Notes: generated by a model not told the origin, from the sequence alone. Counted from the stretch's first letter, positions 22,017-24,100 are shown. The stretch is 28,529 bases of DNA from a virus (IMGVR_UViG_3300047553_000142:1-28529), one strand, 5' to 3'. Translations and numbers: made by a program.

Positions 22017-22820
22017 CTAGAAGTTTAGCATGCTGTGTTCATCATCGTAATACTTGTCCCACTTGTCATCGCGGTAGTTGCGGTAGTCCCATGATGATGA
22101 GAAAGAATCTCTGGATGGTGTGAATTGTTTAAACTCTACAATCTTGCCATCCTTGACCTTGAAGTAATCACCCTCGCTGGCTGTGTATTGCCAGTCTAAG
22201 TCCTCATCTAAAACTACAGAAGCGTTCTCGATAGTTTCTAATGTTGAGCCATAGACCAGTGAACCTTTGGTTGTCTGACCAATCCAGAGCGGGCTACTTG
22301 ATACGCGGGCTAGGTGCAGGATGTTTGACTCGCCTGCTGTAATCCATGCCAACGCTGCGGTGCCACGAATCTGTGGCAGGTACTCGGTTGGATGTGATGC
22401 AGCGAAGGCAATGAGTGCAGCCACTGCCTCGCTGTCAACTTGAGCAACGCGGTCAACCTTGAGTTGTTTAAACAGTGCGTTGTCGTTGCTGATGTGTCCG
22501 TTGTGAGTGACCACGATTTTGCCACGCGGGATTGGATGGTTGTTGTCGTTGTTGCTTGGCTTGCCTTGAGTTGCCCAACGAGTGTGCAAGATGGCGGTGT
22601 TAGCACCAGCGCAGACCTTGCGACCAGCCTTTGTACCGATGAACTTGGATGCAGCGATTGGTGCCTTTGAGATTACACGATTACCCGATGATGGGTTAAT
22701 CCATGCAGCACCAGTTGCGTGATAGCCACGATGCTCGATGTCGAGCAGCATTTGACTAGCGATTTCTGATGTGTTGCCTTTGTGTTTTGGGTTGAGGCAG
22801 AAGCCTGCGATTCCGCACAT
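22017..22820 (-). CDS. Class II glutamine amidotransferase
   Basis: 267 aa starting at the ATG that gives MCGIAGF, so Cys2 becomes the N-terminal nucleophile after Met removal. A longer frame upstream is unlikely because that Cys must be terminal. Ntn-fold glutaminase motifs: HTRWATQGKPS (residues about 80-90), THNGHISN (about 109-116) and VDSEAVAALI. It releases ammonia from glutamine. There is no fused synthetase domain; C-terminal residues are Asp/Tyr-rich. The likely acceptor enzyme is the amidoligase encoded upstream in the same unit. GTTTAAAC copies at 22127 and 22466 both encode Phe-Lys. A terminator follows. Confidence 0.88.
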   Translation of the reverse strand: MCGIAGFCLNPKHKGNTSEIASQMLLDIEHRGYHATGAAWINPSSGNRVISKAPIAASKFIGTKAGRKVCAGANTAILHTRWATQGKPSNNDNNHPIPRGKIVVTHNGHISNDNALFKQLKVDRVAQVDSEAVAALIAFAASHPTEYLPQIRGTAALAWITAGESNILHLARVSSSPLWIGQTTKGSLVYGSTLETIENASVVLDEDLDWQYTASEGDYFKVKDGKIVEFKQFTPSRDSFSSSWDYRNYRDDKWDKYYDDEHSMLNF

Positions 22821-22821
22821 A

Positions 22822-23010
22822 TTAGTTTGCTCCAGTCTTGTTAGGTGTAAGTGTGAAGTATACCACGCGGTTGGTACCACGCTCGACAGCAGGAAGATGC
22901 TCCTTGTTTAAACGCCAGTGGGATTCCGCAACCTCTCTTGCGATTTCCTCGGTGAATAGCGATGTGAACTTTCGACCATAAGGGTCAACGCCCTCGACTG
23001 CGTATAACAT
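22822..23010 (-). CDS. Small 62-aa protein between amidoligase and amidotransferase
   Basis: 62 aa from the ATG with a very strong GAGGAGGAG ribosome site (MLYAVEGVDPYGRKFTSLFT). A beta start, a helix (EEIAREVAESHWRLNKEHL) and a beta end (RVVYFTLTPNK) suggest a compact alpha/beta fold. Its TAA is one base before the amidotransferase ATG, so the two are coupled. Similar short proteins appear as hypothetical in phages. GTTTAAAC at 22906 encodes Leu-Asn. Confidence 0.72.
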   Translation of the reverse strand: MLYAVEGVDPYGRKFTSLFTEEIAREVAESHWRLNKEHLPAVERGTNRVVYFTLTPNKTGAN

Positions 23011-23014
23011 TTTG

Positions 23015-23113
23015 TTACTCCTCCTCTTTGGTGAATAGGTAGAAACTATAGACCAGCAAACCCATGCATGTCCATAGGAAAGCGCGACCATCTGTGAAGA
23101 AAGATAAGTCCAT
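23015..23113 (-). CDS. 32-aa single-pass membrane peptide
   Basis: 32 aa (MDLSFFTDGRAFLWTCMGLL... FTKEEE) with one transmembrane helix (about residues 11-27) and an acidic C-terminus. The ATG is directly after GTTTAAAC (23114-23121), which also carries the stop of the gene before. It lies between amidoligase and amidotransferase genes; no family is recognised. Confidence 0.6.
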   Translation of the reverse strand: MDLSFFTDGRAFLWTCMGLLVYSFYLFTKEEE

Positions 23114-23115
23114 GT

Positions 23116-23280
23116 TTAAACACCTGCCTTGTCTTGCTTGATGTCTTGGATGTGCGCTCTGAACTTCAATTCGCCAGCGTTTAACTCCGCGATTGAGTCG
23201 TTGATTTCTTTCATGCTCGCTGCGATTAGGTTAACCCCAACCACTCGACTGCCGAGAAAGATTGCGTATGTGATTTTCAT
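23116..23280 (-). CDS. Small 54-aa protein, stop codon inside GTTTAAAC
   Basis: 54 aa (MKITYAIFLGSRVVGVNLIA ... IQDIKQDKAGV). A short beta hairpin is followed by a charged helix (MKEINDSIAELNAGELKFRAH). The final GTT TAA lies in the GTTTAAAC copy 23114-23121. Preceded by a 100-nt structured spacer after the amidoligase gene. Unknown function; possible substrate or partner of the amidoligase pair, which is speculation. Confidence 0.62.
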   Translation of the reverse strand: MKITYAIFLGSRVVGVNLIAASMKEINDSIAELNAGELKFRAHIQDIKQDKAGV

Positions 23281-23306
23281 TTTCCAGTCCTATCTGTTTA
23301 AACAAG

Positions 23307-23376
23307 CCGAGACTTTCTCGGTCTTGCTTGCGCCTGCTGCGGGTTACGCTCCCGCACTAGCCCACTAGGGGCAGGC
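23307..23376 (-). other. Structured RNA segment downstream of amidoligase
   Basis: Within the 103-nt gap on the leftward transcript, GCCTGC and GCAGGC (23376-23371 and 23337-23332) close a multibranch element containing a GCGGG/CCCGC hairpin (23355-23339) and a CTAG/CTAG hairpin (23368-23357). A second hairpin, CCGAGA-AAG-TCTCGG, follows at 23321-23307, next to GTTTAAAC (23296-23303). It could be an RNA processing site, attenuator or regulatory element that sets amidoligase to amidotransferase ratios. It is too short for a tRNA. Confidence 0.5.
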
Positions 23377-23383
23377 TGCCTTG

Positions 23384-24100
23384 TTAGGCGGTCTGCAGTT
23401 CGATTGCTCGCTGCTTGAGGTAATCCGCTGTGCGGATGTCGAGGTGATTCTGTGCGAGGGTATCGAGCAATGTGTTGCAGTCGTTTAAACGGCTGCTTGT
23501 ACCAGCGGTGAGGATTCCGCCTGCTGTTGAGAACTCGGCGATTGATTGCACGAACTCTGCCCATGCTTGGATTTTCTTGCCGTTGAGGGTGCCATGATGT
23601 AGGCGGAACTCGACTGTGCCATGCTTGCGGTAACTGTCGAGGTTGAGCGATAGGTAGCGGTTGTGATTGGTTGCGCGGTTGTCAATGTGTCCGTTGCGGA
23701 TTGATTCTGTCCAGCGGTCAATGACTTCTTGACCGAGGAAGTGATTGCAGAAGTGGTTGTTTAAACGGGACTTTGCAACGAGCGCACCGATTGCATCTGC
23801 TGCTGTGTACCAGTTGCGGACTAGGGCAGCGATGCCCTCGATTCCGTAATGGTCTGCACCGATGTGGACATGGTAGCCAGTTTTCTTGTTGACTGTTGCA
23901 CCAGCGCGGAGAAGTGCGCGGGCTGCGGTCACAGACTCGTTTAAACTGTCATCTGTAAGGATTGGCGAGATTGCCTCGGCATCCACGCCAGAAGTGCCAT
24001 CTGGCTTGCATGACCAGTTAAGTCCAACTGCGTTGAGCGCAGCCTGTGCAGTGTTTATCGAGATTGAGGATGTTTCGAGTTCGATTCCGTAGGTAATCAT
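23384..24100 (-). CDS. Amidoligase-like COOH-NH2 ligase
   Basis: 238 aa behind GTGGAGG. Motifs of the putative amidoligase family (glutamine-synthetase/GCS fold): GIELET (5-10), KPDGTSG...EAISPIL (about 32-48), GYHVHIG (75-81) and NRYLSLNLDSY..HGTVEFRLHHGTLN (147-173). Such enzymes use ATP to join an amine to a carboxylate. The class II glutamine amidotransferase of the same transcription unit could deliver the ammonia. The substrate is unknown: wall peptide carboxylates, a small protein or a nucleotide-linked metabolite are all possible. Three GTTTAAAC copies (23483, 23759, 23939) encode Leu-Asn without lying in the motifs. Confidence 0.87.
   Translation of the reverse strand: MITYGIELETSSISINTAQAALNAVGLNWSCKPDGTSGVDAEAISPILTDDSLNESVTAARALLRAGATVNKKTGYHVHIGADHYGIEGIAALVRNWYTAADAIGALVAKSRLNNHFCNHFLGQEVIDRWTESIRNGHIDNRATNHNRYLSLNLDSYRKHGTVEFRLHHGTLNGKKIQAWAEFVQSIAEFSTAGGILTAGTSSRLNDCNTLLDTLAQNHLDIRTADYLKQRAIELQTA

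Follow-up and report, generated by a model that had tools for sequence, protein, structure and literature searches.

An amidoligase–amidotransferase operon of a freshwater actinophage, its SprT-like leader gene and the iterated palindrome GTTTAAAC

Layout of the leftward operon

The stretch of DNA analysed here, referred to as the window, is a complete IMG/VR record of 28,529 bases from a freshwater actinophage. Its TerL protein shares 46–49% identity with those of Streptomyces phage WRightOn and Planktophila phage E7, and its capsid protein is 75% identical to that of E7. The host of phage E7 is 'Ca. Planktophila' (PMC10202952), and this kinship makes a host among the Nanopelagicales likely for the window phage as well. 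Genes at 20541-20903, 21200-21448 and 14261-14677 match the DUF3846, DUF7249 and mycobacteriophage L5 gp49-like families; the DUF7249 gene and an SLT transglycosylase gene are found near the cassette in most relatives. An Rfam search returned no match, and the PADLOC models of anti-phage defence systems gave none for the amidoligase, the amidotransferase, P173, the 62-aa protein or the SprT-like protein of phage Venkman.

The locus is a single leftward operon (Table 1), made up of the SprT-like gene P173, an amidoligase gene (AL), zero to three tiny genes, a glutaminase gene (GAT) and a terminator. The first-pass annotation had described a leftward five-gene unit with its own terminator, in which the two enzymes bracket three tiny genes. 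All five genes are indeed present in this arrangement, with their catalytic motifs intact, and the terminator is real (hairpin of -24 kcal/mol, z=-4.3). The frame of the unit has been moved, however: the operon begins one gene earlier, with P173, which was absent from the five-gene description; its stop codon and the AL start are -4 to +4 nt apart in 64/65 relatives. The more unusual features of the locus, namely this SprT-like leader gene and an iterated palindrome, the word GTTTAAAC, fall outside the five-gene frame.

The three tiny genes encode real proteins, not all of which are fixed. In the 54-aa and 62-aa families most changes fall on third codon positions, and the 62-aa protein combines a conserved N-terminal half (LYIVEGVDPSGRKF) with a variable C-terminus. 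Judged from its sequence, the 32-aa product is probably a membrane peptide. All three genes are missing from 10 of the 66 loci that carry both enzymes. The earlier idea that a tiny product might be the substrate of the enzymes is weakened, since the 62-aa protein has no fixed acidic C-terminus and the 54-aa and 32-aa genes are often absent.

Table 1. Coordinates of the operon and of neighbouring features in the window
Feature	Position	Strand	Remarks
P173, SprT-like, 175 aa	24104..24631	-	phrog_6361 1.1e-12; proposed GTTTAAAC-binding regulator
Amidoligase (AL), GS-like, Amidoligase_2, 238 aa	23384..24100	-	PF12224 E=3.5e-24; phrog_2443 6e-26
54-aa protein	23116..23280	-	present in 9/66 loci with both enzymes
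32-aa hydrophobic peptide	23015..23113	-	present in 43/66 loci with both enzymes
62-aa protein	22822..23010	-	present in 50/66 loci with both enzymes
Class II glutamine amidotransferase (GAT), 267 aa	22017..22820	-	PF13522 4e-19; phrog_14519 2e-50
Intrinsic terminator of the operon	21951..21989	-	7-bp G+C-rich stem, UUCG loop, T run
Predicted operon promoter, TTGACA-18-TACATT	24671..24700	-	GTTTAAAC at 24685-24692, within the spacer
Nine GTTTAAAC copies in the operon	22127, 22466, 22906, 23114, 23296, 23483, 23759, 23939, 24197 (22127..24204)	.	
Four-copy GTTTAAAC cluster behind GAT	21736, 21818, 21871, 21917 (21736..21924)	.	intergenic
SLT transglycosylase gene	20099-20638		downstream of the operon

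The amidoligase and glutaminase pair

AL is a compact, single-domain protein. Its AlphaFold model (pLDDT 93) matches YbdK, Dop and glutamine synthetase in Foldseek with a probability of 1.0. In an alignment of 28 homologues, some of them from Arthrobacter phages, the motifs GxExE, SPxL, HxH, SR, RY..N and TxExRxHxGxLN..K..AW vary hardly or not at all. The true start of GAT is the ATG at 22820 (MCGIAGF), which replaces a longer GTG open reading frame. GAT consists of a stand-alone GlmS-type glutaminase domain, the protein ending after it; an asparagine synthase model scored far below its cut-off on this sequence. The Ntn cysteine and the motifs HTRxxTxG, NHP, HNG and DSE are almost or fully unchanged across 22 homologues. 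Motif loss was seen in neither of these two alignments.

AL adjoins GAT in all IMG/VR relatives with enough upstream DNA, and where GAT alone is seen, the contig ends less than 0.5 kb upstream of it; co-occurrence is thus unbroken among these relatives. The glutamine-fed formation of an amide on a carboxylate, as initially put forward, is well supported as a prediction by fold, motifs and strict co-occurrence. GAT would hydrolyse glutamine and pass the ammonia to AL, which would activate a carboxylate with ATP through GS-like chemistry and release a primary amide. The two proteins would together form a split, two-subunit amide synthetase, whose target is most likely a carboxylate of the host cell. 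Two diverged AL types, about 75% or 44% identical to the window AL, occur among the loci L014-L055, while P173 and GAT on either side are about 70% identical whichever type is present. This suggests an allele replacement of AL alone and, perhaps, a change of substrate.

In the phage AL-GAT modules known from Arthrobacter cluster AL phages, LUZ24-like phages, OM43 phages, Phage-ZRK32 and Iyer et al. 2009, both genes are likewise adjacent or close, and they lie, as in the window, in the nonstructural part of the genome. The pair is found with a gamma-glutamyl cyclotransferase (GGCT) gene in the Arthrobacter phages Kovu and Ottawa, and AL-GAT adjacency extends to a phage genome from Manatee Spring and to Bacteroidetes and Omnitrophica contigs. 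A passage of PMC10580990 credits Iyer et al. 2009 with a superinfection role for the phiEco32 pair, and the suggestion covers there both phiEco32 and Marvin-type AL-GAT pairs. Neither the pair nor the superinfection idea is therefore new, and AL-GAT is classed here as a variant of a known module. It differs from the known modules by its compact single-domain AL, by the tiny genes between the enzymes, by the SprT-derived leader gene coupled to AL and by the absence of gamma-glutamyl cyclotransferase: the GGCT/AIG2 partner gene (PF06094) was found in 0/13 lineage records, most of them about 40 kb long.

An iterated palindrome associated with SprT-like proteins

P173 aligns over its full length with phage SprT-like proteases (phrog_6361, PF10263), shares their C-terminal QxTR ribbon-like domain and is 27–37% identical to the actinophage members (tblastn 4e-12). 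A fold search with its model gave no significant match (best E 0.36). P173 reads VLPLLE where the phage SprT-like proteases read HELVHA, and no HExxH was found in an alignment of P173 with 15 relatives (16 sequences). This motif and the metal-site region that follows are lost throughout the P173 lineage, whereas HExxH is intact in the homologues of Maureen, Caron, Venkman and others, and is kept by most family members. The best-conserved part of P173 is its C-terminal QTTR zinc-ribbon-like domain (KQTTRLIKV.C...YIARVSR.TL...G.PICP.C). The contigs L183, L185 and L192 hold only this domain in the gene slot (open frames of 60–99 aa), and are still word-rich. P173 appears, from these alignments, to be the descendant of a SprT-like metalloprotease that has lost its active site and kept the ribbon-like domain.

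The window contains 37 copies of the word GTTTAAAC, where shuffled sequences have 0.65; these copies span 3717-25120 and are densest in 19196-25120. Over the lineage (79 loci, 0.80 Mb), 1923 copies stand against 17.1 expected, a 112-fold excess over a first-order Markov model, and in the same loci the 24 variants with one mismatch reach 2.2-fold at most. The extended consensus of the sites is YGTTTAAACR. Selection acts on the DNA word and not on the protein, as deduced from two observations. Leu-Asn is written TTAAAC in 353/496 cases after R, C, G or S, where the preceding codon can end in GT, but in only 4/279 after other residues; and orthologues carry the word at the same codons, in the 62-aa gene (46/47), in GAT (72/75) and at two places in AL (61/66 and 58/66).

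Several other origins of the word were rejected. A by-product of codon usage is ruled out by the Leu-Asn contrast together with the 112-fold excess, a signature of the host chromosome by 247 Actinomycetes genomes that are not enriched (0–26 copies per genome), and a trait of all phages on this host group by E7 and 80 TerL relatives, which do not carry the iterated word.

Of the 37 window sites, 15 are not fully inside genes, as compared with 14% of noncoding DNA, and outside genes the density of the word exceeds expectation in the window as well as in the cultured phages Venkman and Pan1. Many copies are nevertheless located within genes, which is unusual for simple operators. The spacing histogram of the sites has peaks, which conserved loci make non-independent, so that no regular spacing is claimed. 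A rightward promoter-like TTGACA-17-TAGAGT lies at 21828-21856, within the intergenic cluster behind GAT. The intergenic region 21642-22017 also holds the inverted repeats TTGTCAAGC...CTTGACAA, similar clusters being seen in the relatives G009 and G014; it is a possible origin or control region.

Mycobacteriophage L5 uses stoperators, which are asymmetric, oriented sites bound by a phage repressor. Like them, GTTTAAAC forms dozens of near-identical short sites scattered over the nonstructural region, promoters and gene junctions included. In contrast, GTTTAAAC is a perfect 8-bp palindrome without direction, many of its copies are intragenic, and the proposed counterpart of the L5 helix-turn-helix repressor is a SprT-like zinc-ribbon protein. 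HIP1 of cyanobacteria is another highly iterated 8-bp palindrome; words of that type are enriched in the host, whereas GTTTAAAC is restricted to phages, the chromosomes of Actinomycetes showing no enrichment.

When IMG/VR was scanned for two nearby copies of GTTTAAAC, word-rich contigs unrelated to the window were retrieved, and the family most common to them was that of P173/SprT (40/71 word-rich against 5/46 word-poor contigs). A prediction drawn from this sharing was borne out in cultured phages. Methylophilales phage Venkman carries 34 copies against 1.45 expected, and Pseudanabaena phage Pan1 16 copies in its record, with 10 against 0.07 expected in the 47 kb read (62% G+C); GTTTAAAC is the most over-represented 8-bp palindrome in both. 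Further copies were counted in Bas97 of E. coli (6), Arya (7), Persinger (4), Mano (4), R5C (17) and Alexa (8), and the link holds in phages of Methylophilales, Pseudanabaena, Dinoroseobacter, E. coli and Acinetobacter.

A set of 80 IMG/VR loci was then picked by their SprT-like protein alone. It contains 528 copies against 22.9 expected, and GTTTAAAC ranks first of 256 palindromes in 55/80 loci, the next best palindrome reaching 3.5-fold. Expected counts derive from a first-order Markov model and the contigs are fragmentary; the non-independence of relatives was handled by clustering at 60% identity, upon which 22/34 clusters were significant and one locus per cluster gave a ratio of 21.8. 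Control loci showed no such excess: 2 against 2.6 expected for dNMP kinase loci (0/16 significant), 7 against 13.6 for bacterial AL contigs (0/53), and 12 against 22.8 for TerL relatives of E7 from the same host order (L372-L451; 0/80), a set added since the dNMP kinase scan had yielded only 16 loci. The difference between SprT-picked loci and controls is highly significant (Fisher p=4e-21). The word is even somewhat under-represented in the TerL relatives, opposite to the window lineage.

Six E7-type loci have a SprT-like protein without the C-terminal QxTR, and no GTTTAAAC excess. Bordetella phage MW2 and Pseudomonas phage Epa5, also without the QxTR ribbon, have 0 sites, but at about 65% G+C few are expected and these zero counts are weak support. 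GC-rich phages of Arthrobacter, Microbacterium and Streptomyces with an intact QxTR ribbon have 0–2 copies, GardenState and DrSierra having 0, so a SprT-like protein does not always bring many sites. The word tracks SprT-like proteins, and not hosts. No earlier description of GTTTAAAC or of its link to SprT-like proteins was found in the open-access papers searched. Among the SprT loci whose ribbon reads QPTR, three related ones (L335, L338, L346) have, instead of a GTTTAAAC excess, 4–5 copies of ATTTAAAT against 0.1–0.2 expected; two further QPTR loci have 0–1. It is only suggestive that ATTTAAAT might be a specificity variant that goes with QPTR ribbons.

The promoters of SprT genes are a preferred place of the word. 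Every one of the relatives (56/56) has a copy in the 150 bp preceding P173, where the word density of their contigs predicts 16.7; the same holds for 23/78 other SprT genes (6.9 expected) and for 7/15 from cultured phages. Only some of the P173 relatives show a -35 next to the site, exact in 10/52 and shifted in others. In Bas97, Arya, Persinger, Mano and Alexa, the word lies 6–9 bp behind a -10-like hexamer (assigned by eye), over the expected transcription start and 16–20 bp before the ATG. A protein bound to a promoter spacer or a start site would stand in the way of transcription. Venkman (L272; for example at 2154, 2375, 2611, 3789 and 4658) shows yet another placement, the word forming gene junctions GTT TAA AC ATG in which the stop codon of one gene lies inside the word and the next start directly behind it.

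A proposed zinc-ribbon regulator and competing readings

The best reading of the locus, to which a probability of roughly 60% is given, is that the operon encodes an amide-forming pair of enzymes and is under the control of a zinc-ribbon regulator that binds GTTTAAAC. It brings together the computed association, the selection on the word, its placement at promoters and the retention of the domain without the protease. Most likely, YGTTTAAACR is the binding site of the QxTR zinc-ribbon domain, which would thereby regulate the transcription unit it is encoded in, here together with AL and GAT. By binding the copy in the promoter spacer through this C-terminal domain, P173 would act as a repressor of the operon it belongs to; the copies crowded into the nonstructural genes and the gaps separating them would serve as additional operators or as roadblocks.

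The association is correlative, and another factor, host or phage protein, could bind GTTTAAAC, with SprT-like proteins merely co-travelling or depending on the word. Such a factor might account for the 31/68 word-rich contigs of the pair scan, all fragments, that show no SprT-like ORF, and for the QxTR SprT phages without sites. It is unlikely, though worth serious consideration, as it leaves aside the site that diverged phages have at the promoter of the SprT gene itself, as well as the low count (12 against 22.8) in same-host-order phages without a QxTR SprT; a host protein would moreover have to be reconciled with Actinomycetes genomes of at most 26 copies and with hosts that span actinobacteria, proteobacteria and cyanobacteria. 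The SPRTN protease of cellular organisms removes DNA-protein crosslinks. By analogy, and given that most family members keep HExxH, the SprT-like family could use GTTTAAAC as a landing site for the proteolysis of DNA-bound or crosslinked proteins, the dead P173 lineage having retained only a decoy or protective role. This appears quite improbable: the lineage with the most sites has no protease, and the placement at the gene's own promoter suggests transcription control.

Other readings start from the enzymes. AL-GAT could amidate wall peptide, or a receptor, and thereby block superinfection or protect from lysis, the operon being a moron and the word incidental. The published suggestion for phiEco32 and Marvin-type pairs (PMC10580990), the SprT-independent pair of Arthrobacter phages and the SLT transglycosylase gene downstream are in line with this. 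Nothing in AL, GAT or the tiny genes suggests wall peptide as the target, however, and the enzymes do not resemble those known for wall amidation: AsnB/LtsA has its glutaminase fused to a PP-loop synthetase, a fusion absent from the window GAT, and MurT-GatD pairs a class I glutaminase with a Mur ligase, whereas GAT is of class II and AL is GS-like. An incidental word is also incompatible with the lineage-wide excess and the codon-level selection, and this reading is considered unlikely. An auxiliary role of AL, GAT and their partners in nitrogen metabolism, as claimed for Phage-ZRK32 (PMC10945688), is very improbable here, since that claim rests on growth effects of the whole phage and the usual GGCT partner is absent in 13/13 lineage records.

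The proposed control of the operon by a QxTR zinc-ribbon protein leads to a broader proposal, put forward tentatively and at somewhat less than even odds. QxTR SprT-like proteins may be a widespread, undescribed class of sequence-specific regulators in phages of actinobacteria, proteobacteria and cyanobacteria, whose C-terminal zinc ribbon would recognise GTTTAAAC both at the promoter of their own gene and at other sites, numbering from several to some sixty in each genome, the metalloprotease domain serving as a built-in switch that was lost in the window lineage. E. coli phage HeidiAbel_Bas97 has a SprT-like protein and six sites, one of them at the predicted start of that gene.

While the amidoligase pair adds one more variant, without GGCT, to a phage module already known, GTTTAAAC is the larger matter: one palindrome, found at the same codons and promoters, goes with one protein family in phages of unrelated hosts. 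The link between the word and SprT-like proteins points to an undescribed phage gene-control system. If true, it would give a function to a phage family now filed as SprT-like protease or transcription elongation protein, and GTTTAAAC would become a genome-readable marker of the SprT-like protein's regulon.
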